Shown here piece after piece: positions 18,905 to 46,742 of a DNA stretch of 46,742 nucleotides; the stretch's first letter is position 1; every line of letters starts with the position of its first letter. Made by a program: the position numbers and the translations under genes. This DNA comes from Armatimonadota bacterium (GTDB lineage: Bacteria; Sysuimicrobiota; Sysuimicrobiia; Sysuimicrobiales; Humicultoraceae). The notes beneath the pieces were generated by a model. The model made no database searches, was not told the DNA's origin, and was given only the letters and a program-made list of their open reading frames with translations. The DNA lies in assembly GCA_031081715.1 (NCBI GenBank), contig JAVHMA010000027.1, positions 1-46,742 of the forward strand. Reading direction: 5' to 3'.

Positions 18905-19582
18905 TCACCGGGACCAGCCGCGGTCCCGCAGCAGGCGCCTGACCGCCTCCAGCAGCGCGCGGTGCACGTCGTCGCGCGGCAGCGCGCCGTTCACGACGAC
19001 AAATCGCCCGGGGTCTTCGCGTGCCAGTTCGAGGAATCCTTCGCGGACCCGCGCGTGGAACGCACCGTCTTCCTGTTCCAGCCGGTCGCCGCGGCCCGCC
19101 GGCGCGTCCTTCCCGTCGGCGCCGCGCGCGCGCTGCAGGCCCAGATGCGGTTCAATGTCGATCAACAAGGTCAGGTCGGGCCGCAGCCCCTGCGTCGCCA
19201 CCTCGTTCACTCGCCGCACCAGCTCCACCGGCAGGCCCCGGCCGTACCCCTGGTAGGCGATGGACGCGTCCACGAACCGCTCGGAGAGCACGCAGGTGCC
19301 GGCGGCCAGCGCCGGCAGGATAACCTCCGCGACGAGCTGGGCCCGGCTGGCGGCGAAGAGCAACATCTCGGCCTCGGGTCTCATGCCGCGGTGGCGCTCG
19401 TCGAGCAGCACCGCCCGGATGGCCTCGCCGAGGGGCGTCCCGCCCGGCTCGCGCGTGAGCACCAGCGGCAGCTCCACCCGCAGGGTCTCGTAGAGGCGGC
19501 GCGCGTGGGTGCTCTTGCCGGCACCCTCGGGCCCCTCGACGGTGAGGAACAGGCCGCGCCCGGCGGCCAGCGGCGGGGTCAT
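18905..19582 (-). CDS. tmk: Thymidylate kinase
   Basis: A 225-residue nucleoside-monophosphate kinase that phosphorylates dTMP to dTDP. The P-loop is GPEGAGKS at 17-24. The family motif LTREPGGTPLGE follows. SERFVDASIAYQGYGRGLP is the equivalent of the usual DR-x3-S-x2-AYQG motif, with Glu in place of Asp in the first position. The LID region is GADGKDAPAGRGDRLEQED. The length is usual (205-230). It starts 7 bases after the ATPase gene stop and is followed 43 bases later by darA, so it is part of one operon. Confidence 0.94.
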   Translation of the reverse strand: MTPPLAAGRGLFLTVEGPEGAGKSTHARRLYETLRVELPLVLTREPGGTPLGEAIRAVLLDERHRGMRPEAEMLLFAASRAQLVAEVILPALAAGTCVLSERFVDASIAYQGYGRGLPVELVRRVNEVATQGLRPDLTLLIDIEPHLGLQRARGADGKDAPAGRGDRLEQEDGAFHARVREGFLELAREDPGRFVVVNGALPRDDVHRALLEAVRRLLRDRGWSR

Positions 19583-19589
19583 CGCCGCG

Positions 19590-21128
19590 CTACCGGGGGT
19601 AGATCACCACGCGGCGGAACGGCTCGTCCCCCTTGCTCTCGGACGCCAAGCCGTACCGCTGCACGAGCTGGTGCTGCAGGCGCCGGATGTACGAGTTCTG
19701 CGGCTCGAGCTCCACGGCGCGCGCCGAGGCCAACACCTGGGCAATCGCGCGCTCGACCTCGGTGAGGGCGGCCTCGTGGTCGGGGCCCTCATCCACGTCG
19801 AAGTGCTCGCGGAGGAACTGCTGGATCTGTGCACCGGTGTTGCTGCGCAGGACGTGGACGGGCACCCCGCGGCTGGCCGCGTCGCGCAGCCGCATCGGCT
19901 GGCGGCGCTCCTGCGACTTCACGGTGAGGACCAGGTCCGCCTCGCCGGAAGCGTCCACGATGTAGGCCGGCACGTGCATCTCGCGGATCGCGCGCTCCAG
20001 CCGGTTGCGGCTCACCGCGTAGGGGTAGATGCGGAGGATCCGCCGGCCCGGCCGCCCGCGGTCCTCCGGGGGCGGCGGGGCGAAGGGCCCCTCCGGCGCC
20101 CAGCCCGGCGCCGCCGGCGCGGGCGGGGCGATCTGCACCTCGCCGGCCTCGGTGCGGGTGCGCAGCTCGGGCCGCGGCAGCACGCCCCGCAGGTAGCGAT
20201 CCACCACCGTCGCGACGTCGTGGTGCACCGCCAGGCGGTCCTTCTCCTGGATCTCGATGACGACGTCGAAGGTGGGCGGCGCCTTGCGCTCGAGCACGGT
20301 CTTCTGGGTGCCGCGGCGTCGCGCCTCCTCGTCGGAAAGCGTGACGGCCTGGATGCCGCCGACCAGGTCCGAGAGCGTCGGGTTCTGGAGGAGGTTGTCC
20401 AGGGTGTTGCCGTGGGCGGTGGCGATGAGCTGCACCCCGCGCTCGGCGATGGTGCGCGCCGCCTGCGCCTCGGCCTCGGTCCCGATCTCGTCGATGACGA
20501 TGACCTCGGGCATGTGGTTCTCGACCGCCTCGATCATCACCGCGTGCTGGAGCGCGGGCACCGGGACCTGCATCCGGCGCGCCGCGCCGATGCCGGGGTG
20601 TGGGATGTCGCCGTCGCCGGCGATCTCGTTGGACGTGTCCACCACGACGACGCGCTTGCGCAGCTCGTCCGCGAGCACGCGCGCCGCCTCGCGGAGCAAC
20701 GTGGTCTTCCCCACCCCCGGCCGCCCGAGCAGGAGGATCGAGCGGCCGGACTCGATGACATCGCGGACGATGTCCACGGTGCCGATCACGGCTCGGCCCA
20801 CGCGGCAGGTGAGCCCGATGATCTCGCCCTGCCGGTTGCGGATGGCGCTGATGCGGTGGAGCGTGCGCTCGATGCCCGCGCGATTGTCCTTGCCGAACGC
20901 GCCGACACGATCGGTGATGTATTTGAGGGTTGCGCGGTCCACGTAGGCGTCGTCGAGGACGAGGGTGTCGTTGGGAAACCGGGCCTCCGGCCGCCGCCCC
21001 AGGTCCAGGACGACCTCGAGCAGCTGGTCGGTGGCGCCGCGGCGCTCGAGCGCCGCGCGCAGGTGCGGCGGCAGCACGTCGAGGAGCAGGTCGAGGTTGT
21101 CGGTGATCTGGATCTGGCGTCCGGCCAC
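19590..21128 (-). CDS. SpoIIIAA-like AAA ATPase with C-terminal R3H domain (Ycf45-type)
   Basis: A 512-residue cytoplasmic protein. Residues 60-270 form a SpoIIIAA/secretion-ATPase-like AAA domain with Walker A GRPGVGKT at 135-142 and Walker B VIVIDE at 209-214, then [16 protein letters not shown] Pro/Gly-rich linker follows. The C-terminal third ends in an R3H nucleic-acid-binding domain with RRLQH in [16 protein letters not shown]. This fusion is known from Terrabacteria, cyanobacteria and plastids (Ycf45) and is usually annotated as an R3H-domain single-strand nucleic-acid-binding protein of unknown role. GTG 21128 is chosen over the longer start at 21272 because GAGGGGG lies just upstream and the extension would run through the promoter-proximal hairpin leader. 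It heads the tmk-darA-holB operon. Confidence 0.85.
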
Positions 21129-21165
21129 GGGGGCCCCCTCCCGGCGCGCGGGCCCGGAAAAGATG

Positions 21166-21189
21166 GAGGGGAACCCGCGGGCTCCCCTC
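21166..21189 (-). terminator. Leader hairpin followed by a U-rich run, candidate attenuator
   Basis: In the transcript leader of the ATPase-tmk-darA-holB operon, GAGGGGA pairs with TCCCCTC (7 bp, one mismatch, then further CCG/CGG pairing). On the minus strand it is followed by ATCTTTTCC. The structure lies about 38 bases before the GTG start, so it could act as an intrinsic terminator (attenuator) or as a leader stability element. No competing antiterminator was identified. Confidence 0.4.
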
Positions 21190-21277
21190 GAGGTCGTACC
21201 GTCCGGTGTGCGCTGCGGCGCGAACCGCGTCCGCTGACTCAAGCGATGCTCGGGCGCTGCTCGATCACTCACCTCTT

Positions 21278-21306
21278 ATTATAGGTGCCCGGGGTGCGGG
21301 GTGCAA
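21278..21306 (-). promoter_or_regulatory. Sigma-70-type promoter of the ATPase-tmk-darA-holB operon
   Basis: On the minus strand TTGCAC (21306-21301) and TATAAT (21283-21278) are separated by exactly 17 bases, a near-consensus housekeeping promoter in a sequence where TATAAT is otherwise very rare. The predicted start near 21271 gives a leader of about 140 bases before the GTG at 21128. Confidence 0.75.
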
Positions 21307-21323
21307 CAGACGGGCCCCGCGCA

Positions 21324-22886
21324 TCACCGCTCCAGCCAGGCATTGTACCACGTGTGCGTCGGGTTCTCGACGAACCCGCGCAGCTCGCGCCGGTGCAGGT
21401 GCATCTCGAAGAAGTCCCCAAACTTGATCGACCCGGCGTCCGCGTACCAGGTGCGCTGGAGCCGCTGCCAGATCTCGTAGCGCGTGCGGGGGTTTGTATG
21501 GCGGCGCAGCAGCTCCATCATCGCCATGCCGTCGCGGTTGCTCCACCAGCCCGGCCACGTGTGCTGCAGCGGCACCTGGAACACCGGGTCGGGGAAGAAC
21601 GCGATCTGCGTGCTGAAGACGTCCCACAGCTCGGGCCGCACCCGCCGGCTGACGATGGTCGCCCAGTCGCTCACCTGCAGGTCGATGACGAATCCCGCGC
21701 GCTCGAGCATGGGCTTGGCCACCTGGGCGGAGACCGCCTGGTGCGGGAACTCGGTGGTGGTCATGTACCGGACCGGCTCGCCGCGGTAGCCGGCCTCCTG
21801 GAGGAGCTGCCGCGCGCGCTGCGGGTTGTTCGGGCTGTAGTACTCCTTCCCCGCGTCCGTGTACATCGGGTGCTCTTTGGGCATGATGCCGGCGTCCAGG
21901 CGCCAGAACCGCTGCGGGCCGAACGCCGCCTGCATGATCGGGCCGTGGTCGAGCGCGGCCTGGAACGCCTGGCGCACCTTCGGGTTGGCCATGAGGCCCT
22001 GGCGGTTGTTGAAGATCGCCGCGTTCCAGAACGGCAGCGTCGCGACGTAGGGCACCAGGCTCTGGTCGCCCCGCAGCCGGTCGTACTGGTCGCTCGGGAT
22101 CTGCTCGGCGAACTGGAACTCGTTGCGCTGCGTGCCGGCGATGCGCACCGACAGATCGGGCACCGGGATGAAGACGATGGCGTCGAGGTAGGCGTGCTTC
22201 TGGCCGGTATTGCCGTCGGCGGCCTCGGTCCGGCTCGCGTAGCCGTCGAACCGCTCGAGCCGGATGTGACGGTCGGGCACCCGCTCCGCGAGCCGGTACG
22301 GCCCGGTGCCGATGAATCGGCGGATCGGCCCGGTGGCGCCGGCCTCGTCCACGACCTCCTTCGGGTAGACCGCCGCCGGCGACTGGAACGAGCCCAGGTC
22401 GGCGAGGAGCAGCGCGTAGGGCTCCTTGAGCCGCAGCACCACCGTGTAGGGGTCGGGGTTCGACACGGCGGCCACGTTGGCGAAGACGATGCGCCCGCGG
22501 AAGTTGACGCGGCCCCAGCGCTCGAGCGACGCCCGCACGTCGTCGCTGGTCATCTCGCGGCCATGGTGGAACCGGACGCCGCGGCGCAGCGCAAACGTGT
22601 AGGTCAGCCGGTCGGCGCTCATGGTCACGCGCTCCGCCAGCATGGGCCGCACCTGGAACTTGCTGTCCATCGCGACCGGCGCCTCGTAGAGGTTGTTCAG
22701 GATATGGCTGACGATGGCGCCGCTCGACCAGTGCCAGTCCAGCGTCGGCGGTTCGCCGATGTGGGCGATGCGCAGCACCCCGCCCCGACGGGGCTGCGGC
22801 TGGGGTTGCCCCTCGGTGGGCAGGACCAGAACCAGGGCCAGCACGAGCATGATCGCGGCGCCGAGCAGGCCGCGCAGCATCTTCAC
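21324..22886 (-). CDS. ABC transporter substrate-binding protein, family 5 (oligopeptide/dipeptide type), orphan
   Basis: A 520-residue secreted binding protein of the DppA/OppA/NikA family. It has a signal peptide over residues 1-27 (MKMLRGLLGAAIMLVLALVL). The mature protein starts RRGGVLRIAHIGEPPTLDWH, and the family block TYTFALRRGVRFHHGREMTSDDV is near residue 98. The C-terminal region carries AFQAALDH and ARQLLQEAGYRG. GTG 22886 follows GGAGGG by 6 bases. The protein ends without the usual permease and ATPase genes nearby, so it must work with a transporter encoded elsewhere or act as a sensor. Ligands of this family include peptides, nickel, sugars and many small organics; none can be assigned. 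It has its own promoter candidate. Confidence 0.9.
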   Translation of the reverse strand: MKMLRGLLGAAIMLVLALVLVLPTEGQPQPQPRRGGVLRIAHIGEPPTLDWHWSSGAIVSHILNNLYEAPVAMDSKFQVRPMLAERVTMSADRLTYTFALRRGVRFHHGREMTSDDVRASLERWGRVNFRGRIVFANVAAVSNPDPYTVVLRLKEPYALLLADLGSFQSPAAVYPKEVVDEAGATGPIRRFIGTGPYRLAERVPDRHIRLERFDGYASRTEAADGNTGQKHAYLDAIVFIPVPDLSVRIAGTQRNEFQFAEQIPSDQYDRLRGDQSLVPYVATLPFWNAAIFNNRQGLMANPKVRQAFQAALDHGPIMQAAFGPQRFWRLDAGIMPKEHPMYTDAGKEYYSPNNPQRARQLLQEAGYRGEPVRYMTTTEFPHQAVSAQVAKPMLERAGFVIDLQVSDWATIVSRRVRPELWDVFSTQIAFFPDPVFQVPLQHTWPGWWSNRDGMAMMELLRRHTNPRTRYEIWQRLQRTWYADAGSIKFGDFFEMHLHRRELRGFVENPTHTWYNAWLER

Positions 22887-36812: not shown

Positions 36813-37899
36813 GCCCGGACGTGTACTGGTCGAAGCGCCGCATCACCTCGGGCCGGATGCGGGTCGCCGTCTCGATGTCCACAACGACCACCTTGGGCAC
36901 CTCGCGCACGACCGCCTCGATGGACAGGTCGACGGGGTGGACGGTGGCTCGGATCCCGGCGCGCACCGGGTTCTGGTAGTTGTTCGCCGAGTTGATCTGC
37001 CCCGACGGGGACAGGATGAACTTGATGAACTGCCGCGCCAGATCGGCGTTGGGCGCGCCGCGGACCACCCCCACCGCGGTGGCGAAGACCCACGCGCCCT
37101 CGGTCGGGTAGACGACCTCGACGGCCTGCCCGCGGACCTTGCCCTCGTGGTAGGAGCGGGCGGTGCCGAAGCTGATCGGGATCTCGCCGCGGCCCACCAG
37201 CGTGTAGAGCGCCGAGGTGGACCGGGAGTAGAACGCCAGGTTCTCGTTGAGCCGATCCCAGTAACTCCACAGGCCCTGCGGCCCCATGATCTGGTAGAGC
37301 GCGACGATCGTGTTGAACGCCGACGAGGAGAGTTGCGGCATGTTGAACACCACGTGGCCCTTGTAGGCCGGGTTGGTCAGATCGGACCAGGTGCGGGGCA
37401 CCGGCAGGCGCAGCGCGGCGAGCCGGTCCCGGTTGTAGCCGATCACGCCGAGCGAGTACCCCCACACGTACCAGTGGCCCTCCCGGTCGTGCAGCGGGAT
37501 GCGGGAGCCGCCCAGGAACAGGGTGGACGGGGCGACGCCGGCGATCTCCCGGGGGTTGGTGGGTTCCAGCAGTCCCTTCTTGGTGGCCTCGATGAACTCG
37601 AACACCGCGCCGGAGTGGAAGACGTCCGCGCGCGGCGAGGCGCGCTCGGCGTCGAGCCGCGTCAGGATGGCCTCCGCGCCCAGCCCCGGCAGAATCTCGA
37701 CCGTCACGCCGGGGTTCTCCGCCTCGAAGTCGCGCTTGAGCGACTCGGTGAAGTCGCGTGGTGCCGCGCTGTAGACGACTAGCCGGCGCGCCGGCGCGGC
37801 CTGGCCGGTGGAGAGGCCGGCCGCGATGACGAGCAGGACGACGAGAAGCCCCAGCGCGCCCCTCGCCGTGCGGGCAGTACGTCCATCTCGCATCTTCAT
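36802..37899 (-). CDS. ABC transporter substrate-binding protein (Fe3+/thiamine-type, family 1)
   Basis: A 365-residue secreted binding protein. The signal peptide is MKMRDGRTARTARGALGLLVVLLVIAAGL, cut before or near APARR. The mature part starts RRLVVYSAAPRDFTESLKRD, the standard FbpA/AfuA/PhnS-like first strand, and EAENPGVTVEILPG follows. It lacks the conserved tandem Tyr pair that FbpA uses for ferric iron at the expected C-terminal place, as far as can be seen, so iron is unlikely. ATG 37899 overlaps the molybdenum hydroxylase stop (ATGA). The in-frame ATG at 37893 has better spacing from GGGGGG and is an alternative. The cargo is probably a substrate of the catabolic enzymes around it. 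Confidence 0.9.
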   Translation of the reverse strand: MKMRDGRTARTARGALGLLVVLLVIAAGLSTGQAAPARRLVVYSAAPRDFTESLKRDFEAENPGVTVEILPGLGAEAILTRLDAERASPRADVFHSGAVFEFIEATKKGLLEPTNPREIAGVAPSTLFLGGSRIPLHDREGHWYVWGYSLGVIGYNRDRLAALRLPVPRTWSDLTNPAYKGHVVFNMPQLSSSAFNTIVALYQIMGPQGLWSYWDRLNENLAFYSRSTSALYTLVGRGEIPISFGTARSYHEGKVRGQAVEVVYPTEGAWVFATAVGVVRGAPNADLARQFIKFILSPSGQINSANNYQNPVRAGIRATVHPVDLSIEAVVREVPKVVVVDIETATRIRPEVMRRFDQYTSGRAR

Positions 37900-40202
37900 C
37901 CCCCCCTGATCTCGACGTGCATGTCCGTGCGCGCTCCGTCCCCTGCGCCCCTCAACCGGCGCCAGACCCGCTCGGGCGTAAGGGGCAGCCCCGTCACCTC
38001 GATCCCCAGCTCGGCGAGCGCACCCACGATCGCCCCGGGCACGAAGGCGAGCGACCCCTCGCCGACCCCCTTGGCGCCGTAGGGCCCCGGCCCGTCCGCG
38101 TTCTCCACGAGCACGGAGACCATCTCGTCGGGGACATCCGCGATCGTTGGCACGTGGTAATCGACGAGCGAGCCGTTCAGCAGCTGCCCGTCCTCGAAGA
38201 CCATCTCCTCGTAGAGCGCGTTGCCCACCCCCTGCAGACTCCCGCCCTCGTCCTGCGCCTCGACGAGCTGCGGGTTGATCGCCTTCCCCACGTCCGCCAC
38301 GCTCGCGAGCCGCCGCACCCGGACGCGGCCCGTCTCGCGGTCCACCTCGACCTCCGCGCCGCCGACGCACACCTCCCAGAAAACCGGCCCCTCGGCGAAC
38401 GACCCGGTGCCGCGCTGCGGTCGCACCTCGCCCCGACCGATCAGCTCGCCGCCGGGCATGCCGAAGTGCTCCCGGAGCAGGTCGGGATACGTGAGCCGCT
38501 CGGTCTCGTGCCAGACGGCACCGTCGCGCACCCGGAGCGCGGACGCGGGCAGCCCCCAGCGGGAAGCGGCGATGTCGAGGAGCTGCTCGCGCAGGTGCAC
38601 CGCGGCGCGCAGCACCGCGGTGCCCGCCAGCGTGGTCGAGCGGCTGGCACCCGTGGACCGGTCGTAGGGCGTGAACTGCGTGTCCGCGCCCATCACCCGG
38701 ACGCGCTCGACCGGCAGCGCCAGCTCCTCGCCCACGATCTGCGCGAACACCGTCCGCGCGCCCTGGCCGAGCTCGGAGGTACTGGCCAGCACGACCGCGG
38801 TCCCGTCGGCCTGCAGCCGCACCGCGGCCACCGAGACCGGGTTCGCCCCGGCCGCCAGCAGCCCGACGCTGAGCCCGCGCCCCACCTCGGGCCCGGCCGG
38901 CGTGCCCCACCCGATGGCGGCCGCTGCCCGCTCCACGTCGCCCACCAGGTCCGCGTCGAGCGGCTTGCCGCCGGGCCGGACCTCCTCGCCGGGCCGCAGG
39001 AGGTTACGGCGGCGGAACTCCAACCGGTCCATGCCGACCGCGCGCGCCAGCGCGTCGATCTGGGCCTCGCCGATCCACTGCAGGTGCGTGGCGCCGAACC
39101 CGCGGTACGACCCGGCCGGCGGCGTGTTGGTGTAGATCGCCCAGGCGTCCACCGCGACGGCGTCCCAGCGGTAGGGCCCGGGCGCCGCGTCCCCGGCGGT
39201 GGCGGCCACGCGCGGACCGTTGTCCGCGTAGGCCCCGGTGTCCAGCCACGCGCGGCACTCCCGAGCGACCACGCGGCCGTCGCGCGTCGCCGCGGAGCGC
39301 ATCCAGCAGCGCATGTTGTGCCGCCGCGTGGTCACCATCGCTTCGTCGACGCGGTTCGCGATCCTTACCGGCGCCCCGGCCTTCCGCGCGAGCGCGGCCG
39401 TGATCGGTTCCATCTTCGTGTAGGACTTGCTGCCGAACCCGCCGCCGATGTAGGGCACGATCACGCGCACCGCCGCCAGCGGCAATCCGAACAGGTCCGC
39501 GAGCTCGGCGCGCACCAGGTAGGGGTGCTGGCAGCAGGCGTGCACGGTCAGGCCGTCGCTGCCCCACCGCGCGATGACGGTGTGGGGCTCCATCGCGTAC
39601 TGGTAGACGGCGGGAAACGTGTATTCGTTCTCGACGACCACCAGCCCGGGCGCCTCGAACGCCGCGCGCCCCTCGCCGCGCGCCACCCGGTAGTGGTAGC
39701 AGACGTTGCCGCCCTCGTCGGCGAACTCGCCCAGGCCGTGGAACAAGCCGCGCTGGTAGGTCGCCTCGTGCACGCGGGGCGCCCCTGGGGCCAGGGCCGC
39801 GGCGAGCGTGGTGACGCCCGGCAGCGGCTCGTAGACGACCTCGATGCGCTCGGCCGCCTCGGCGGCGGCCTGGGGGCTGTCGGCCGCCACAGCCGCCACC
39901 GGCTCGCCCGCGAACCGCACGCGGTCGATCGCAACGATGGGCCGATCCTTGATCGCGTGCCCGTAGAGCGCCGTCTGGGGGTCGAGGTCCGCGCCGGTCA
40001 GCACCGCGCGCACGCCGGGGACCGCGAGCGCCGGGGTGGGGTCCACGCGCACGATCCGCGCCGAGGCGTGCGGGCTGCGCAGGACCTGCCCGTAGAGCAT
40101 GCCGGGCTCGCGCAGGTCGCCGGCGAAGCGCGCGGCGCCGGTGACCTTGTCGACGTCGACCCGGCGGACCGACGTCCCGACCACGCGGCCGCCCGTGCTC
40201 AC
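37896..40202 (-). CDS. Molybdenum hydroxylase large subunit (xanthine dehydrogenase/CoxL family), copy 3
   Basis: A 768-residue catalytic subunit of the xanthine dehydrogenase family. The hammerhead domain starts RVVGTSVRRVDVDKVTGAARF, then RSPHASARIVRVD. The molybdenum-binding half has VPYIGGGFGSKSYTKMEP, the active-site loop GSYRGFGATH (Y366), GASRSTTLAG and the catalytic Glu E715 in GAKGVGEGS. The start overlaps the class II aldolase-like gene stop (GTGA). It lies between the presumed pyridine-degrading enzymes upstream and the ABC importer downstream. No FAD or iron-sulfur subunit genes are nearby, so it must recruit them from elsewhere or use another electron acceptor. The likely reaction is aldehyde oxidation or hydroxylation of an N-heteroaromatic ring. 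Confidence 0.9.
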   Translation of the reverse strand: MSTGGRVVGTSVRRVDVDKVTGAARFAGDLREPGMLYGQVLRSPHASARIVRVDPTPALAVPGVRAVLTGADLDPQTALYGHAIKDRPIVAIDRVRFAGEPVAAVAADSPQAAAEAAERIEVVYEPLPGVTTLAAALAPGAPRVHEATYQRGLFHGLGEFADEGGNVCYHYRVARGEGRAAFEAPGLVVVENEYTFPAVYQYAMEPHTVIARWGSDGLTVHACCQHPYLVRAELADLFGLPLAAVRVIVPYIGGGFGSKSYTKMEPITAALARKAGAPVRIANRVDEAMVTTRRHNMRCWMRSAATRDGRVVARECRAWLDTGAYADNGPRVAATAGDAAPGPYRWDAVAVDAWAIYTNTPPAGSYRGFGATHLQWIGEAQIDALARAVGMDRLEFRRRNLLRPGEEVRPGGKPLDADLVGDVERAAAAIGWGTPAGPEVGRGLSVGLLAAGANPVSVAAVRLQADGTAVVLASTSELGQGARTVFAQIVGEELALPVERVRVMGADTQFTPYDRSTGASRSTTLAGTAVLRAAVHLREQLLDIAASRWGLPASALRVRDGAVWHETERLTYPDLLREHFGMPGGELIGRGEVRPQRGTGSFAEGPVFWEVCVGGAEVEVDRETGRVRVRRLASVADVGKAINPQLVEAQDEGGSLQGVGNALYEEMVFEDGQLLNGSLVDYHVPTIADVPDEMVSVLVENADGPGPYGAKGVGEGSLAFVPGAIVGALAELGIEVTGLPLTPERVWRRLRGAGDGARTDMHVEIRGG

Positions 40203-40942
40203 CGCGCCCTCCGGCGGTGCGCGCGGGGCATGCCCTCGTCGAGCCCCATCCGGCGCACCGTGCGCAGCCAGTAGGCCCAGTACTCGTCCATGAACTCGTC
40301 ACGGTACTTGGAGGCGTGCAACGGCCCGAGCAACGCCTGGGGAATCGGTCGGGGCTCGCCGAGCCGCGAGGCGACCGCCTGCACCATGACCGCGCGCTCC
40401 AGGGTCAGCGCCGCGAACACGGCCCACCGCACGTCCTTGCCGACCACCAGCACGCCGTGATTGCGGAGCAGCACGGCCCGCCGCGCCCCGAGCGCGCGGG
40501 CGATGTCCGCGCCCACCTGAGCCGACATGATCAGGTCGGCCGTGTCCTCGAAGACCGCCAGGCCGTCGGGGAAGAGCAGCGCGTCGTGCGAGAGCGGGAG
40601 CAGCCGCGCCCCGGCGGCGCCGAGCGCGGTGGTGTAGATGGGGTGCGTGTGGATGACCGCGCCGACATCAGGGCGCGCCTTGTAGACCTCGGTGTGGAGC
40701 GGCACCTCCAGGTGGACGGCGCCGTCGCCCCGCAGGCGCCGGCCGTCCAGGTCGAGCGTCAGCACGTCCCGCGGCGCCACCTCCTCGAGCGCGAGCCCCT
40801 TGCGCTTCATGAACACGCGGTCGCCGGCGCGGGCGCTCACGTGGCCGAGCGTCAGGTCACCGTGGCCGTAGGCCGCCAGGATCCGGCACGCCCACGCGAC
40901 CTGCGCGCGGAGGTCGCCGTCGGAGGGGCGGCGCGCGGTCAT
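40199..40942 (-). CDS. Class II aldolase/adducin-family enzyme, candidate pyridine-dicarboxylate decarboxylase
   Basis: A 247-residue class II aldolase-like metalloenzyme. The metal ligands are in place: E79, H98 and H100 (in VIHTHP), and H162 (in LRNHGVLV). The family includes fuculose- and ribulose-phosphate aldolases/epimerases and, importantly, 3-hydroxy-2-methylpyridine-4,5-dicarboxylate 4-decarboxylase of vitamin B6 degradation. The C-terminal DEYWAYWLRTVRRMG with its aromatic Trp-Tyr-Trp pattern recalls the end of that decarboxylase as I remember it; no alignment was possible. Its direct neighbours upstream are homologues of the two other pathway enzymes. ATG 40942 overlaps the stop of the dehydrogenase gene (ATGA). 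A sugar-phosphate aldolase remains possible, but no sugar genes are near. Confidence 0.75.
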   Translation of the reverse strand: MTARRPSDGDLRAQVAWACRILAAYGHGDLTLGHVSARAGDRVFMKRKGLALEEVAPRDVLTLDLDGRRLRGDGAVHLEVPLHTEVYKARPDVGAVIHTHPIYTTALGAAGARLLPLSHDALLFPDGLAVFEDTADLIMSAQVGADIARALGARRAVLLRNHGVLVVGKDVRWAVFAALTLERAVMVQAVASRLGEPRPIPQALLGPLHASKYRDEFMDEYWAYWLRTVRRMGLDEGMPRAHRRRAR

Positions 40943-41889
40943 GCCGTCACCGACAGCGCCTTCCGCGTCGCGAGCAGCAGGCGCATGCGCCGCTGCATCA
41001 GCGGCGGGATGCTCTCGGGCGTGTAGGCGAACAGGCCGCGGCCCGTCTTGATGCCAAGCTCGCCGGCCTCGACCTTCTGCCGGACGAGCGGGCTCACGTC
41101 GCGGCGGCTGCTCAGGTCGGCGTTCAGGTAGGACGCCACGCTGTGGTAGATATCGAGTCCGGCGACGTCCAGCAGCTCCAGCGGCCCGATGACCGCGAGC
41201 TTGTAACCGATCCCCCACTTCACGATCGTGTCGATGTCCTCGGCCGAGGCGATCCCTTCCTCCAGCAGGTGGAGCGCCTCGCGCATGATCGCGTAGAGGA
41301 TGCGGTTCTCGACAAACCCCGGCACGTCGCGCCGCACGACGACCGGGATCATGCCCAGGCGCTCGACCACACGGCGCGTGGCGGCGACCGCGGCGTCGCC
41401 GGTGCGCTCGCCGCGGATGACCTCGATGACGGGGATCAGGTGCGGCGGGTTCGACCAGTGCATGCCCACCACGCGCTCGGGCCGCTGCACGGCGCGCCCG
41501 AGCTCGGTGATCGGGATGCCGGAGGTGTTGGAGGCCAGGATCGCCTCGGGCCCGATGCGCCGCTCGGCCTCGGCGAAGAACTGCTGTTTGAGATCGGCGC
41601 GCTCGGGGATGGCCTCCACCACGAAATCGACGCCTGCCAGCGCGTCCATCGGATCAGAGGTGAAGGTGAGCCGCGGCCGGGCCGCGGCCACCTGGTCGGC
41701 GGAGAGGAGCTCGCCCTGCTGCAGGGTCGCATACACCGTCTCCACCGTGCCGCGGGCCCGCTCCAGCACGTCGGGCTTGATGTCCGCCAGCCGGACGTCG
41801 AAACCGTGGGTGGCGAACATCGCGGCCATCCCGGGCCCCATCGTGCCGGCGCCGATCAGCGCCACCGTGCGCACGTCATCGCCGTTCAT
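40939..41889 (-). CDS. 3-hydroxyacyl-CoA dehydrogenase-family enzyme, candidate pyridine-aldehyde (FHMPC) dehydrogenase
   Basis: A 316-residue NAD-dependent dehydrogenase. The Rossmann motif GAGTMG is at 13-18. The catalytic pair is H144 and E156 in GMHWSNPPHLIPVIEVI, with N195 in GFVENRILYA. The HWSNPPH segment and WGIGYKLAVIGPLELLDVAGL near residue 225 differ from the usual HFFNP and PMGP motifs of fatty-acid enzymes. They match what I recall of the vitamin B6-degrading enzyme 5-formyl-3-hydroxy-2-methylpyridine-4-carboxylate 5-dehydrogenase, which belongs to this family. ATG 41889 has GGAGG 7 bases upstream. It lies between the class V aminotransferase and the class II aldolase-like genes. 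A plain hydroxyacyl-CoA role is less likely, since no thiolase, enoyl hydratase or acyl-CoA genes are near. Confidence 0.75.
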   Translation of the reverse strand: MNGDDVRTVALIGAGTMGPGMAAMFATHGFDVRLADIKPDVLERARGTVETVYATLQQGELLSADQVAAARPRLTFTSDPMDALAGVDFVVEAIPERADLKQQFFAEAERRIGPEAILASNTSGIPITELGRAVQRPERVVGMHWSNPPHLIPVIEVIRGERTGDAAVAATRRVVERLGMIPVVVRRDVPGFVENRILYAIMREALHLLEEGIASAEDIDTIVKWGIGYKLAVIGPLELLDVAGLDIYHSVASYLNADLSSRRDVSPLVRQKVEAGELGIKTGRGLFAYTPESIPPLMQRRMRLLLATRKALSVTA

Positions 41890-41908: not shown

Positions 41909-43078
41909 TCACTCCCACTCGCCCAGCAGGGCCATCGCCGCCCCGACCCCCGCGCCCAGTCGCACCGACCGGCCCAGATCAGCCAGGCTGCGCTCCAGCA
42001 CCGCCAGCAGTGCGGCCAGATGCGTGGGGTGGGCGGAGACACCCATGTGGCCGAGCCGGAAGGTCACACCCGCCAGCTCCTTGTACCCGCCCGAGATCTT
42101 CACCCCGTACGGCCGCCGCATGCGGGCCACCAGGGCGCCCGCGTCGAGGCCCTCGGGCGTCCGGACCGTGGTCACGGCATTGCAGGCGATCTCGTCGCGC
42201 GCCGGCCACGGCGCCAGCCCCAGCGCCCGCACCGCGGCGCGGCACGCCCGGCCCACCCGGGTGTGCCGCGCGATGTGCCGCTCCAGCCCGACCTCCAGCA
42301 CCTGCGCCGCCACCGACTCCAGGGCGTAGACCAGGCTGACCGACGCGGTGTAGGGGAACGCGCGCTTCTCCACCCAGCTCTCGCGCCAGTCGAGCAGAGA
42401 GAGGTAGCTCTCGCGCAGCGGCGTGGGCCGGCGCCGGGCCATGGCCTCCCACGCGCGCGGGCTAACCGCGATGGGGCACAGCCCGGGCACGCCGCCGAGC
42501 GCCTTCTGCGGCCCGGCGACCGCGATGTCGACCCCCCAGGCGTCCGCCTCGAAGGGATGGCTGCCCAGACCGAGCGCGGTGTCCACGATGGTGATCACAC
42601 CGGCCTCGGACGCGATCCGGCAGATGTCGTCCACGGGGTTCACGGTGCCCGACGGCGTCTCCGCGTGGACGACCGCCAGGAACCCCACGTCAGGATGCCG
42701 GCGCAGCGCGCGGCGGACGTCCTCGGGGTCGATCGCCTGATCGTACGGCACCGCCACCTCGAGGGGCTCGGCGCCGGCCCGCGCGATGAAAGTCTCGAAC
42801 CACTTCCCGAAGATCCCCGAGACCAGGTTGAGGACCCGGTCGCCCGGCGAGAACAGACTCGCCGCCACGGCCTCCATCCCGAGCACAACCTCGCCCTGGG
42901 GGATAACGATGTCGTGCGCCGTGCGGAAGATGTGCTTCAGATGGTCGGTCGCGCGCGCGAACGTCTCGACGAACGCCGGGTCGTAGTGGTTGACCACCTG
43001 GCGCGCATGGTCCCGCAGCGTCCGGTTGGTCACCTCGCCCGGACCGGAGGCCGCCGAGAGGTACGGCCAGTCGGTCAC
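41909..43078 (-). CDS. Class V PLP aminotransferase, pyridoxamine-pyruvate aminotransferase-like
   Basis: A 389-residue fold-type I enzyme of the alanine-glyoxylate aminotransferase group. The PLP lysine is K192 in VAGPQKALGGVPGL. HAETPSGTVNPVDDI at 138-152 and VDTALGLG at 165-172 are the usual cofactor loops. The stretch QGEVVLGMEAVAASLFSPGD at 61-80, then LNLVSGIFGKWF and VPYDQAIDPEDV, resembles pyridoxamine-pyruvate aminotransferase (PpaT) of Mesorhizobium more than other members, from memory of that protein. PpaT converts pyridoxamine and pyruvate to pyridoxal and alanine and uses pyridoxal as substrate, not as bound cofactor, so the call can be tested directly. Other candidates are serine-glyoxylate, alanine-glyoxylate or aminoethylphosphonate aminotransferases. 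GTG 43078 lies 10 bases after the cupin stop. Confidence 0.78.
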   Translation of the reverse strand: MTDWPYLSAASGPGEVTNRTLRDHARQVVNHYDPAFVETFARATDHLKHIFRTAHDIVIPQGEVVLGMEAVAASLFSPGDRVLNLVSGIFGKWFETFIARAGAEPLEVAVPYDQAIDPEDVRRALRRHPDVGFLAVVHAETPSGTVNPVDDICRIASEAGVITIVDTALGLGSHPFEADAWGVDIAVAGPQKALGGVPGLCPIAVSPRAWEAMARRRPTPLRESYLSLLDWRESWVEKRAFPYTASVSLVYALESVAAQVLEVGLERHIARHTRVGRACRAAVRALGLAPWPARDEIACNAVTTVRTPEGLDAGALVARMRRPYGVKISGGYKELAGVTFRLGHMGVSAHPTHLAALLAVLERSLADLGRSVRLGAGVGAAMALLGEWE

Positions 43079-43088
43079 GCCGCCGTCC

Positions 43089-43451
43089 TCACCGCCGCGC
43101 CGTCGGCGGGTAGTCGGGATGCGGGAACCCGAAGACCATCACCACGTCCTCGTCGCCAGTGTTCGCCACCGCGTGCCAGGTGTGCGGCGGGATGAACAAC
43201 GCGTCGCCCGGGCCGAAGGTAACCGCGCCCTCGTCCAGCCGCAGCTCGCCGCGCCCGGCCACGACGTAGGCCACCTCCTCCACCTCGTGCGAGACCATGC
43301 CGAGCACGGTCCCGGGGGTGAACACCGAGTAGCCGAGCGAGGACCGGTTCCCCCCGGCGGTCCTGGCGGTCACGAGCATCCGGCTCCAGCTCCCCTGCGG
43401 GAGCGCGATGGGCTCCACCTGGCCCAGGTTGACGACCCTCACCGGCGCCAT
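43089..43451 (-). CDS. Single-domain cupin protein
   Basis: A 120-residue cupin. Motif 1 is LGMVSHEVEEVAYVVAGRGEL, with one His and two Glu; motif 2 is GDALFIPPHTWHAVANTG, with the metal-binding His. It starts MAPVRVVNLGQVEPIAL. ATG 43451 overlaps the stop of the M29-like gene (TGATG). A GTG 12 bases further upstream is possible but less likely. Small cupins can be dioxygenases, isomerases or sensors. In this operon it may take part in metal-dependent handling of a ring or its opened product, which cannot be shown from the sequence. Confidence 0.88.
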   Translation of the reverse strand: MAPVRVVNLGQVEPIALPQGSWSRMLVTARTAGGNRSSLGYSVFTPGTVLGMVSHEVEEVAYVVAGRGELRLDEGAVTFGPGDALFIPPHTWHAVANTGDEDVVMVFGFPHPDYPPTARR

Positions 43452-44458
43452 CAGAGCACCCACTGCCCGTCACGGAGGATGTAGCGTCCGCTGTCGAGGA
43501 TCTGCAGGGACGCGTTGAGGACGACGCCGTCCAGGTGGAGCGTGCTCACGTTCTGCCCGCCCGGGTAGGCGTTGTGGTTGTCCCCGAGCGCGAAGTGCAC
43601 GGTCCCCAGCCGGCCCTTCTCGGAGGGCGAGCCGAACGGCGACTTCGTGCTCGTCCCGAAGGCGAACTCGCCGATCACGTTGGCCCCCGGGACCCCGGCG
43701 ATCACCTCGCGCAGCCGCGCCGCCTCCGGGCCGCCCTCGATGGCGGTCGCGCGGCCGCCCGTGACGGTCCAGGTGATTGGGTGGGCGACCTGACCCGGCA
43801 CGCCGATCCCTAGCATCACACCGTCCACCACGATGCGCCCCTCGGTCTGGTCCTCCACGGCGGCGAAGGCCACCTCCGCCCACAGCGGCACCGGACCCAT
43901 CATCTGCCCCCGCTTCTTGATGGGGGTCACCTCCAGCGCCGGCCGGCCGGCGATGCTCACCACCACGTCGGTCCCGTTCGCCGCGGTGACGCGGCAGCGC
44001 GAAACTCCCTGTAGCGCCGCGATCGCGTCGCGCGCGCGCCGCGTGGCTTCCTGGATGTCGCGCTCGGTCAGGTCCCAAGCGCCCATGCCTTCCTCCACCG
44101 AGGCGATCTTACCGTTGGCCGCGCAGGTTTCCCGCACCGCCGAGACGTGCGCGAACCGGTTAGCCCACTCCAGGTTCGTGATGATGATCACCTCGTCCGA
44201 GGCGACCATCGCCTGGTGCAGGTTCCGCGGGGGCGCCATCGGGAAGCGCACATCCGCCAGTCCGCGGCGGACCTGGGTCTCATTGTTCATGATGACCGGG
44301 AAGGCGCCCCGGTCCAGCGCCGCCGCGGCGAGCGCCTGCGCTTCCTTGAGGTGCGCGTCGTCGGTGATGATGGTCACGACATCGTCTTTCGCGACCGACA
44401 TGCAGACGTCCACGATCAGCTCGGCGTCGCGCCGGAGTCTCTTGCGGGATACTGCCAT
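43451..44458 (-). CDS. M29-family metalloenzyme: aminopeptidase-like, or NicX-type pyridine-ring dioxygenase
   Basis: A 335-residue protein of the M29 (thermophilic aminopeptidase) fold. The metal-ligand region is complete: E264 in GEFAFGTS, H288 and Y298 in GTVHFALGDNHNAYPGGQN, and H308-x-D310 in LHLDG. The same family contains NicX, the Fe(II) enzyme that opens 2,5-dihydroxypyridine in nicotinate degradation with a Glu/His/Asp triad. Here E264, H308 and D310 take those places. The N-terminal domain (RDAELIVDVCMSVAKDDVVTI) is of the aminopeptidase kind. Motifs alone cannot separate peptidase from dioxygenase; the operon with molybdenum hydroxylases and pyridine-type enzymes favours a ring-cleaving role. 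GGGGAGGG stands just before ATG 44458. Confidence 0.75.
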   Translation of the reverse strand: MAVSRKRLRRDAELIVDVCMSVAKDDVVTIITDDAHLKEAQALAAAALDRGAFPVIMNNETQVRRGLADVRFPMAPPRNLHQAMVASDEVIIITNLEWANRFAHVSAVRETCAANGKIASVEEGMGAWDLTERDIQEATRRARDAIAALQGVSRCRVTAANGTDVVVSIAGRPALEVTPIKKRGQMMGPVPLWAEVAFAAVEDQTEGRIVVDGVMLGIGVPGQVAHPITWTVTGGRATAIEGGPEAARLREVIAGVPGANVIGEFAFGTSTKSPFGSPSEKGRLGTVHFALGDNHNAYPGGQNVSTLHLDGVVLNASLQILDSGRYILRDGQWVL

Positions 44459-44497: not shown

Positions 44498-45733
44498 TCA
44501 CCCGCGCAGGCGGCGGGCGGCCCCGACGACGCTCTCGATTACGTAGTCGACCTCCGCATCGGTCAGGCGCGCGTAGACCGGGAGCATCAGGATCCGGTCA
44601 TAAGTGCGCTCCGCGACCGGGCACAGCCCCCGCGGGTAGCCGCGGCTCTGGTAGACGCTGAACCAGTAGGCCGGCGGGTACCCGGTGATGGTCTGCACGC
44701 CGTAGTCGCAGAACAGCGTGCGCATCAGCGCGTCACGCCCGAACCCCGCCTCCGCCTCATCCACCAGGATGCCGTACAGGTAGTAGATGTGTTCGCCCGC
44801 TCGCGCCTCGTGCGGCAGGACCAGGCCGGGCACGTCGGCCAGCGCCTCGGTGTAGCGGCGGGCGATCGCCCGACGCCGGGCGTTGTTCGCAACCAGGCGC
44901 CGGAGCTGGACCCGGCCGACCGCGGCCTGCGCCTCGCTCATCCGGTAGTTGGTCGGGATGTACCCGTCGGGCGCCTCCACGTCGTAGGGCAGGGGCAACC
45001 AGTAGTCGGCGGCTGGGTGCTCGACGCCATGATTGACCCCGATGCTGCGCAGCAGCGGCACCTTGGCTGCCCACGCGGCGTCCCGGGTCGTGAGCATGCC
45101 ACCCTCGCCCAGCGTCGTGATGTTCTTCCGCGAGTGGAAGCTGAACGCGGCCGCGTCACCGAGCGATCCCGCCGGCCGGCCCTTGTAGGTCGCCCCCGCC
45201 ACGTGGGCGGCGTCCTCGATGACCCGCAGGCCGTGGCGGCGCGCAACCGCGGTGATGGCGTCCATGTCCGCGCACTGGCCGAATAGGTGCACCGCGTAGA
45301 TCGCCCGCGTCCGCGGCGTGATAGCCGCGGCCACCGCGTCTGGATCCAGGGTGAATGTGCGCGGGTCGACGTCGACGAACACCGGCGTCGCCCCGCAGCT
45401 CAACACCGACGTGCTGGTGGACACAAACGTCAGCGGCGTCGTAATGACCTCGTCGCCCCCCCGCAGCCCGCAGAGCTGGCCGGCCACGATCAGGGCGACC
45501 GAGCAGTTGGCCATCGTGAACGCGTATGGCACCCCGCACAGCGAGGCGAACTCTGCCTCGAAGGCGCGGTTCTGCGGCCCGTCGGTCTGCGCGTCCTGCT
45601 GCAGGGTCTGGGCGATGGCCTGGATCTCCTCGAGCCCGAAGTCGCTCCCCACAGGCTGGTGGCGGACCCGGATACCGCCGGGCGGCGGCTCCGCCCGCCC
45701 GGCCCGCCCCGCCCCCTGCGTGCTCAACGCCAT
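44498..45733 (-). CDS. DegT/DnrJ/EryC1/StrS-family aminotransferase
   Basis: A 411-residue fold-type I PLP enzyme. GSDFGLEEIQAIAQTL near the start and TANCSVA-like TMANCSVALIVAGQL at 73-87 give the phosphate site. DAAHVAGATYKG at 174-185 holds the pyridine-stacking region. The catalytic lysine is K203 in FSFHSRKNITTLGEGG. ATG 45733 is preferred to a GTG-type start at 45763, because GGGAGGAGG lies 7 bases upstream. Members mostly aminate nucleotide-linked ketosugars, but some act on cyclitols and other ketones. No sugar-nucleotide genes are nearby. Its place in the catabolic operon suggests a different amine or ketone substrate, possibly from ring opening. Confidence 0.88.
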   Translation of the reverse strand: MALSTQGAGRAGRAEPPPGGIRVRHQPVGSDFGLEEIQAIAQTLQQDAQTDGPQNRAFEAEFASLCGVPYAFTMANCSVALIVAGQLCGLRGGDEVITTPLTFVSTSTSVLSCGATPVFVDVDPRTFTLDPDAVAAAITPRTRAIYAVHLFGQCADMDAITAVARRHGLRVIEDAAHVAGATYKGRPAGSLGDAAAFSFHSRKNITTLGEGGMLTTRDAAWAAKVPLLRSIGVNHGVEHPAADYWLPLPYDVEAPDGYIPTNYRMSEAQAAVGRVQLRRLVANNARRRAIARRYTEALADVPGLVLPHEARAGEHIYYLYGILVDEAEAGFGRDALMRTLFCDYGVQTITGYPPAYWFSVYQSRGYPRGLCPVAERTYDRILMLPVYARLTDAEVDYVIESVVGAARRLRG

Positions 45734-45779
45734 GGTGGTGCCTCCTCCCGAAGGATCCCCCAACGCCCCGCCGCAACGG

Positions 45780-46742
45780 TCATCGCCGGGCGCGCGCCGA
45801 AAACCGCGGCAGCACGTCCCGCGCGAACCGGGCTACCTGCCCAAACTGGTCCAGCGCCCCGAAGCGGCAGATGAACGTCGTGACCCCGGCGCGGGCGAAC
45901 GTCTCGATCCACGCGGCGATGCGGTCCGGCGTGCCGACGGGCCCCCACTCGCCCAGGTCCACCGCCTTGCTCAGCTCGGGATAGTACTGGGAGATGTACT
46001 CATCGATGCCCCGCTGGGCCTCGGCCTCCGAGTCCGCGATGTTCATCGTCACCTGATAGGCCACCGCCAGGCTGGAAGGGTCCCGACCCTCCGCCGCGGC
46101 GGCCTCGCGGATGCGCTCGAGCTGGGCGGTGAGTTCCTCGGGATGTCGTGCCCGGCAGCACGTCATCCAGCCGTCGCCGTATCGCACGATCCGCAGCGCG
46201 GCGCGGTCGATCACCCGGGCGACGCGCCGCTCCTCGACGCCGCGGATGAGCCGCGGGTTGCTGACAATCCACATCGGCGGAGGCGTTTGCACGGGCATGA
46301 GCGGTCCCATCTCGACGCCGGAGGAGAAGCTGACGTCCTGGTAGTCGAACCACCGGCCCTTGTGGGTGATCCGCCCCTCGGTCCACAGCGTGCGCAGGAC
46401 GTGGAGGCCCTCCTCGAAGATCTCGGCCCGGCGCTCGAAGTCCAATCCCAGCGCCCGATACTCCCGTCGAACGCCTTCCTCGGGGTTCCCCATGCAGGCG
46501 CCCAGGATCGTGCGGCCGCCGGAGATCACGTCCAGCGTGGCCCACTCCAGCGCCAGATAGAGCGGGTTGCGCGTGCCCGTGACCAGGCAGGCGGTGCCGA
46601 GCTTCGCCCGCGTCGTGCGCTGCGAGATCGCGGCGAGCAGGGCGAGCGGCTCGTAGCGGGGCTTGGAGAACAGGCTGTCCCCCACCCACATCGACTCGAA
46701 GCCCGCCTCCTCCGCGGCGGCCGACAGGTCGAGGAGCGCAGG
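45780..46742 (-). CDS. LLM-class flavin-dependent oxidoreductase (5' end beyond the window)
   Basis: The visible 320 residues belong to a luciferase-like (LLM) TIM-barrel enzyme that uses F420 or reduced FMN. The frame is open to the window edge, so the N-terminus is missing. The visible part begins ALLDLSAAAEEAGFESMWVG, which is the usual strand-helix before VGDSLFSKPRYEPLALLAAI. ATG 46691 is internal to the fold and not a credible start. Later blocks are ALEWATLDVISGGRTILGACMG and GVTTFICRFGALDQF. It is the first visible gene of the minus-strand catabolic operon, 46 bases before the aminotransferase gene. A monooxygenase acting on a ring or amine is possible; the substrate is unknown. Confidence 0.9.
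   Translation of the reverse strand, partial: PALLDLSAAAEEAGFESMWVGDSLFSKPRYEPLALLAAISQRTTRAKLGTACLVTGTRNPLYLALEWATLDVISGGRTILGACMGNPEEGVRREYRALGLDFERRAEIFEEGLHVLRTLWTEGRITHKGRWFDYQDVSFSSGVEMGPLMPVQTPPPMWIVSNPRLIRGVEERRVARVIDRAALRIVRYGDGWMTCCRARHPEELTAQLERIREAAAAEGRDPSSLAVAYQVTMNIADSEAEAQRGIDEYISQYYPELSKAVDLGEWGPVGTPDRIAAWIETFARAGVTTFICRFGALDQFGQVARFARDVLPRFSARARR

Follow-up and report, generated by a model that had tools for sequence, protein, structure and literature searches.

An M29-fold protein whose metal site resembles that of two-metal hydrolases, encoded in a conserved operon resembling vitamin B6 degradation pathway I

The closest described relatives of the protein studied here are the M29 aminopeptidases and the pyridine-ring dioxygenase NicX. 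According to PMC7023490, AmpS binds two metals through E253, E319, H348, H381 and D383, and LmAmpII needs all six residues of the EEHYHD set, as mutation of any of them abolishes activity. In NicX, the Fe ligands are His265, Ser302, His318 and Asp320, and the substrate is held by Glu177 and His189 (PMC7910607). Pathway I of vitamin B6 degradation ends, as outlined in PMC3538738, with a ring-opening oxygenase and a last hydrolytic step in which (E)-2-(acetamidomethylene)succinate gives rise to succinic semialdehyde, ammonia, acetate and CO2. Hydroxylation and saturation followed by hydrolytic ring opening has precedents in nicotinate degradation, namely the enamidase of E. barkeri and HxnM of A. 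nidulans (PMC9304392). Few pathways of cofactor catabolism are characterised; a 2025 paper counts only those for B6, NAD+ and riboflavin among the well-characterised ones (PMC12746152).

We analysed a window of 46,742 nucleotides, i.e., the whole stretch of DNA presented here, in which an initial annotation had described an M29 'aminopeptidase' as a possible NicX-type dioxygenase. The ORF is present on the minus strand, where it starts with ATG and encodes 335 residues without internal stop, and stops interrupt this frame on the plus strand (Table 1). Its product, P0001, scored 43.8 bits with Pfam Peptidase_M29, for which the cut-off is 27, and had no match in NCBIfam at E 0.001. Software would file the gene under peptide-cutting enzymes, but the label leucyl aminopeptidase that the initial annotation expected would thus not stem from an NCBIfam model. 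A phmmer search of the PDB with P0001 alone gave no match, whereas a profile search did. The genome from which the window comes (G000) also encodes a canonical M29 paralog on contig C32 (320 bits, match spanning 363 residues). A second short COG2309 protein lies on its contig C17 (L004:8515-9483), and genes for two large subunits of molybdenum hydroxylases are found approximately 3 kb away.

Table 1. Features of the window discussed in the text, with the basis of each assignment
Feature	Position	Strand	Basis
P0001, M29/COG2309 fold	43451..44458	-	ORF reading, Pfam, ortholog alignment, model
Luciferase-like (LLM) flavoprotein, truncated where the window ends	45780..46742	-	Pfam/NCBIfam matches, synteny
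DegT/DnrJ aminotransferase between LLM and M29	44498..45763	-	Pfam; no recurrent family here elsewhere
Small single-domain cupin, overlapping the end of the M29 gene	43089..43463	-	Pfam, synteny
Class V aminotransferase	41909..43078	-	Top NCBIfam pyridoxamine-pyruvate transaminase, 351 bits (cut-off 600); best PDB match 2z9u
FHMPC dehydrogenase-like protein	40939..41889	-	401.6 bits (cut-off 500); PDB 4om8 (FHMPC dehydrogenase) 333 bits, next 190
Class II aldolase-type protein, possible pyridine-carboxylate decarboxylase	40199..40942	-	Pfam; PDB comparison with the G010 ortholog
Molybdenum hydroxylase large subunit	37896..40202	-	Pfam, synteny
SBP_bac_5 binding protein	21324..22886	-	80% identical to the SBP inside the G010 operon
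Glu195 codon	43874..43876	-	Column of AmpS E253 / LmAmpII E250; Phe or Gln in the NicX clade
Glu264 codon	43667..43669	-	Column of AmpS E319 (bridging); NicX His265
His288 codon	43595..43597	-	Column of AmpS H348; Leu/Met in the NicX clade
Tyr298 codon	43565..43567	-	Invariant in 38 aligned rows
His308-Leu309-Asp310 codons	43529..43537	-	Ligands of the other metal: AmpS H381/D383, NicX H318/D320

Plasmid records held 10 relatives of P0001, every one below 60% identity. Three plasmid proteins (L091:7959-8993, L092:5959-6990 and L093:5956-6990) are annotated as leucyl aminopeptidase and yet carry the NicX ligand set, so that the feared misannotation is real, but affects NicX-clade proteins. The L091 and L092 genes have neighbours of alpha/beta hydrolase, isochorismatase and either racemase or maleate-isomerase type. 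The L093 protein has Gln in the NicX Glu177 column and its gene adjoins a 4-hydroxyphenylacetate 3-hydroxylase-type gene; its substrate may be another ring.

A scan of genome contigs for orthologs of P0001 yielded 40 loci, all in records titled as MAGs. Two fragments (L085 and L086) were discarded, leaving 38 near-complete orthologs at 62-81% identity. Gene content was compared over 40 loci comprising these 38, the locus of genome G010 and the window; L046 was left out because it lies on the same contig as L047. The comparison was made by tblastn, with L045, L049 and L057 as sources of the queries and a separate identity floor for each gene. In this set, where many loci end at contig edges, the LLM flavoprotein and the cupin were each found at 38 loci, the aldolase at 37, the 2Fe-2S and large subunits of the molybdenum hydroxylase at 35 and 34, and its FAD subunit at 24. 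Genes of vitamin B6 degradation type recurred less often (FHMPC dehydrogenase 28, lactonase 24, transaminase 21, short-chain dehydrogenase [SDR] 19), as did those for GntR (22), glyoxalase (14) and a Zn-alcohol dehydrogenase (11). The LLM gene lies directly upstream of the M29 gene in 30 of the 33 loci with room for it; L060, L067 and the window depart from this order, the DegT aminotransferase gene intervening in the window, and no recurrent family occupies that position in the other loci. Downstream follow the cupin (34/34 loci), the aldolase (33/34), the molybdenum hydroxylase large subunit (32/34) and the FHMPC dehydrogenase (28/34). With 38 near-complete orthologs in a common gene order, this arrangement is far beyond chance. 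It occurs in records titled with several phyla, including Chloroflexi and Actinobacteria. The operon is also present in L072, a record titled Bifidobacterium breve MAG that is possibly misnamed or a mixed bin.

The catabolic context described by the initial annotation was borne out and proved stronger than described. Its further statement that no peptide-handling genes are present holds less well, since the G010 operon includes an oligopeptide-type SBP_bac_5 gene and M20-peptidase/deacylase families occur at some loci (F19 at 5, F23 at 4). The FAD and 2Fe-2S partners of the molybdenum hydroxylase are non-adjacent in the window, and adjacent in G010 and G028. On contig C7 of G000, L113:9064-9894 codes for a homolog (50%) of the FAD subunit of the molybdenum hydroxylase in the G010 operon, with one TAG in frame. 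Genes for an R3H/PTPase-domain protein and a thymidylate kinase follow the operon in G010, and genes of these types lie beside the SBP gene in the window (18905-22886), approximately 15 kb from the operon; the common set hints at one ancestral site.

Several genes of the operon resemble those of B6 degradation. The best NCBIfam matches in G010 were pyridoxamine-pyruvate transaminase (364 bits, equivalog cut-off 600), 4-pyridoxolactonase (280 bits, cut-off 325), FHMPC dehydrogenase (397 bits, cut-off 500) and, for the SDR, pyridoxal 4-dehydrogenase (218 bits, cut-off 325, with the next family close at 211 bits). The window transaminase matched PDB 2z9u, which we take to be the M. loti enzyme PPAT, at 278 bits, with the next match at 174. 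The aldolase-type protein of G010 scored 120 bits against other aldolases and 85 bits against Mlr6791, presumably the decarboxylase of the B6 pathway; being closer to the former, it is assigned a decarboxylase role by inference. Among the proteins scanned, all B6 enzymes fell below their equivalog cut-offs and only two transporter proteins passed, namely the B6-transporter ATPase (716.8 bits, cut-off 670) and binding protein (405.2 bits, cut-off 400) of L049. The corresponding permease of L057 scored 410.5 bits, under its cut-off of 465, and B6-transporter-like genes were found at 11 of the 40 loci. In six genomes searched, no lactonase exceeded the cut-off, with matches above 75 bits only in G010 and G048, and no B6 binding protein exceeded its own. 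Genome G000 reached 46 bits for the lactonase (cut-off 325) and 87 bits for the B6 binding protein (cut-off 400), and thus has no clear copy of either. Its contig C19 encodes a related Bmp-type transporter (74 bits to the binding-protein model) with an ATPase 43% identical to that of L049. Of the five upstream enzyme types of pathway I (transaminase, pyridoxal dehydrogenase, lactonase, FHMPC dehydrogenase and decarboxylase), the window holds three. The lack of a clear lactonase in G000 makes the substrate of the window operon less certain, and its pathway may start from 4-pyridoxate or from another pyridine.

We annotated all gene families found in at least four loci, through one representative each, and recognised among them neither the FAD-dependent ring-opening oxygenase nor the acetamidomethylenesuccinate hydrolase. 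Ten of the 31 proteins with FAD_binding_3 matches in G000, G010 and G028 were scanned, and none was named as the B6 oxygenase, an enzyme that NCBIfam may not model; most were of the geranylgeranyl-reductase type, the others being PRK06185, salicylyl-CoA hydroxylase and GMC, with one lacking a match. One geranylgeranyl-reductase-type protein is encoded downstream of the molybdenum hydroxylase genes in G010. Potential amide hydrolases among the recurrent families are two M20 groups (5 and 4 loci) and an amidohydrolase-2 (4 loci). Within the conserved core of LLM, M29, cupin, aldolase and molybdenum hydroxylase, P0001 is the sole hydrolase-type protein, the lactonase being present at 24 of the 40 loci. 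Plasmid searches revealed no classical B6 cluster among the best 20 of 1168 records for the FHMPC dehydrogenase or the best 20 of 405 for the lactonase. Among the open-licence papers listed, which provide weak evidence of absence, none described a B6 operon of such composition or an M29 protein in pyridine catabolism. On the basis of its gene content, the operon resembles pathway I, of which neither the ring-opening oxygenase nor the amide hydrolase was recognised among the recurrent families.

An AlphaFold2 model of P0001 (mean pLDDT 94) had NicX as its nearest solved structure (TM 0.79; VIA Z 32.5 and 32.0; rmsd 2.9 over 316 at Z 32.5), and NicX was also the best PDB match of the profile (1.2e-24). 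PepS, AmpS and AmpT gave TM of 0.63-0.71 and Z of 21.3-24.9, indicating that the modelled overall shape is nearer to NicX than to the aminopeptidases. P0001 is also close in length to the NicX-clade proteins (343-350 residues) and shorter than the PDB aminopeptidases (408-418). The interpretation of the initial annotation is supported in part: P0001 is probably not a housekeeping peptidase, and its operon resembles one for pyridine-ring catabolism. In a tree, the orthologs (10 rows), the NicX clade (8) and canonical M29 proteins including AmpS, AmpT and PepS (6) each formed a separate clade, all three starred 100/100, and the branching order among them is unsettled, with several long branches meeting. 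Joining the orthologs with NicX or with M29 was not rejected at 0.05 in the AU test (p 0.0625 and 0.0762, respectively). The initial annotation had named clear clustering with two-metal aminopeptidases, with all ligands of the second metal, as the result that would contradict it; the full ligand set was found, but no such clustering.

Two alignments characterised the metal site. The first (A3) contains P0001 and 37 of the 38 near-complete orthologs, the incomplete L052 being omitted, and in it E195, E264, H288, H308 and D310 are each invariant (38/38 rows). The second, made with MAFFT, comprises 42 rows (10 orthologs, 8 of the NicX clade, 6 canonical M29, 18 short rows). In its five M29 metal-ligand columns, P0001 has the same residues as all six canonical rows and 17 of the 18 short rows, the exception (L022) having Gln in column 264. 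By contrast, these columns read Phe/Gln, His, Leu/Met, His and Asp in all eight rows of the NicX clade, which also have the Ser ligand. Only two of the four NicX ligands, as His308 and Asp310, are kept in P0001, all four being present in every NicX-clade row. Glu264 replaces His265 and Ala290 replaces Ser302, and the NicX substrate residues Glu177 and His189, found in 6 and 7 of the 8 rows of the NicX clade, align with V177 and P189. The second-metal ligands absent from NicX, E195 and H288, are retained in P0001 and its orthologs (38/38). The canonical column of the catalytic Tyr corresponds to His295, is variable (His in 19/38 rows of A3) and holds no Tyr in any of the 18 short rows. Three residues beyond it, Tyr298 is invariant (38/38) and, judging from the alignment, may substitute for the catalytic Tyr.

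These data bear on the central claim of the initial annotation. Glu264, His308 and Asp310 are indeed at the residues named, but of this trio only His308 and Asp310 coincide with NicX ligands; the three are part of the six EEHYHD columns and thus belong to the M29 set rather than to a NicX signature. Neither the ligands nor the substrate residues support a NicX-type site with a single Fe(II). The predicted site resembles that of a two-metal hydrolase, not the one-iron site of NicX.

The cofactor of the LLM flavoprotein was considered from its family and from its host genomes. The F420-type model TIGR03619 was the best NCBIfam match of three full-length copies (L045 150, L047 142 and L049 126 bits) and of the truncated window copy (141 bits), all under the cut-off of 166.9. 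Among PDB proteins, F420-dependent glucose-6-phosphate dehydrogenase scored 54 bits and RutA approximately 33. CofD was above the cut-off in 18 of 23 host genomes and just under it in G047 and G054, with a 28-bit fragment in G000 and none in G010 and G052. An F420 ligase was found in five of six genomes, including G000 and G010 and missing in G052, and cofH exceeded the cut-off in two of six. In G000 an F420-dependent NADP oxidoreductase domain protein adjoins the ligase. Neither G000 (97% complete) nor G010 (95% complete) has a cofH match or a cofD match over the cut-off, which argues against the use of F420 there.

Sequence or model establishes the fold of P0001, its five metal ligands and the conservation of its operon. 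On this basis we propose, at about an even chance of being right, that P0001 is a two-metal C-N hydrolase of the M29/NicX fold that acts after the molybdenum and LLM steps in a variant degradation of vitamin B6 (pyridoxine-type pyridine). The upstream enzymes would convert pyridoxamine or pyridoxal to 4-pyridoxate and then to 3-hydroxy-2-methylpyridine-5-carboxylate, the molybdenum hydroxylase would place an oxo group beside the ring nitrogen, and the LLM flavoprotein would end aromaticity by reduction or mono-oxygenation. With a metal-bound water, P0001 would then hydrolyse the resulting lactam or N-acyl bond, either replacing (E)-2-(acetamidomethylene)succinate hydrolase or opening the ring hydrolytically like enamidase. 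Enamidase belongs to a protein family different from M29. An oxygen-independent form of this route, in which the molybdenum hydroxylase yields a 2-pyridone, an F420- or flavin-dependent LLM reduces the ring and the two-metal M29-fold enzyme hydrolyses it, is considered unlikely.

The hydrolase proposal draws on the five ligands, which agree with the six canonical M29 rows in every one of their columns and whose LmAmpII counterparts are all essential when mutated (PMC7023490), on the B6-like operon with the L049 transporter proteins above their NCBIfam cut-offs, on the position of P0001 as the only hydrolase-type protein of the core, and on the enamidase and HxnM precedents (PMC9304392). The fact that no FAD ring-opening oxygenase was recognised among families in at least four loci favours it, and also speaks for a rival reading, in which P0001 itself is an O2-dependent ring-cleaving dioxygenase with NicX-like function and a different metal site, possibly di-iron or Glu/His/Asp, and the molybdenum hydroxylase supplies its 2,5-dihydroxypyridine-type substrate. 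By reasoning, hydroxylation of 3-hydroxy-2-methylpyridine-5-carboxylate beside the nitrogen would yield such a 2,5-dihydroxypyridine, and P0001 is closest to NicX in fold and profile match and near the NicX clade in length; the closeness in fold also weighs against a hydrolase. His104 also aligns with NicX His105, though Phe occupies this column in 5 of the 8 rows of the NicX clade. According to PMC7356986, KpiC belongs to the amidohydrolase family and uses O2 to cleave 3,4-dihydroxypyridine; it illustrates that hydrolase-like folds can turn into oxygenases, so an oxygenase role for P0001 is still conceivable. We nevertheless consider it unlikely in view of the replaced NicX ligands and substrate residues, the retention of both ligands of the site lost in NicX, the separate ortholog clade, and the annotation of the recurrent families, which include no isochorismatase- or maleate-isomerase-type gene.

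Other observations also count against the hydrolase proposal, namely the variable catalytic-Tyr column, the M20 and amidohydrolase-2 genes that could supply an amide hydrolase, the sub-cut-off scores of the scanned B6 enzymes, and a possibly different substrate in G000. Within that proposal, the LLM protein could be an FMN-dependent, RutA-like monooxygenase that opens the ring, leaving P0001 as a late N-acyl amidase only. The adjacency of the LLM and M29 genes, the cofH and cofD results in G000 and G010 and the presence of RutA among the PDB matches speak for this division of labour, and TIGR03619 as the best family of each LLM copy compared, albeit below its cut-off, the F420 ligases of both genomes and the higher score of the F420-dependent dehydrogenase speak against it; as a part of the hydrolase proposal, and within its odds, we consider it somewhat less likely than not. 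Finally, complete metal ligands, a Pfam M29 match above gathering, and the M20-family and oligopeptide-type binding-protein genes at some loci would fit an ordinary small aminopeptidase found in the operon by chance. Such an explanation is very hard to sustain, given the identical catabolic neighbours across records titled with several phyla, the canonical M29 paralog already present in G000, and a length of 335 residues that falls short of both that paralog's match and the PDB members.

Whichever protein opens the ring, the operon suggests a B6-like branch of cofactor catabolism in lineages titled Chloroflexi, Actinobacteria and others, and the core proteins LLM, M29, cupin and molybdenum hydroxylase form a small set of candidates for that step. 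If P0001 is a hydrolase as we propose, it is also an example of an M29 fold that no longer acts on peptides but retains the metal site of the peptidases. If the oxygen-independent route were correct, it would add a third mode of B6 ring cleavage, as well as a new activity of the M29 fold.

Compared with known systems, P0001 shares with NicX (PDB 7cn3, 7cnt and 7cup) the fold, the His and Asp of one site and a pyridine-ring context, but lacks the His265 and Ser302 ligands and has two extra metal ligands and other substrate residues; no recurrent genes of nic type were annotated at its loci. With the aminopeptidases AmpS, AmpT, PepS and LmAmpII it has all five metal ligands in common, and it differs in being shorter than the PDB members, in a Tyr shifted by three residues, in its separate clade and in its catabolic operon. 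Transaminase-, SDR-, lactonase- and FHMPC dehydrogenase-like genes and a class II aldolase gene link the operon to pathway I as described for Pseudomonas MA-1 and Mesorhizobium loti (PMC3538738, PMC6253932). The operon adds the molybdenum hydroxylase, LLM, cupin and M29 genes, whereas the 2-methyl-3-hydroxypyridine-5-carboxylate oxygenase and the acetamidomethylenesuccinate hydrolase of that pathway were not recognised among families in at least four loci. The anaerobic nicotinate pathway of E. barkeri, as presented in PMC9304392, proceeds like our proposal through hydroxylation, saturation and hydrolytic ring opening, with the difference that ring reduction by the LLM flavoprotein is a proposal only.
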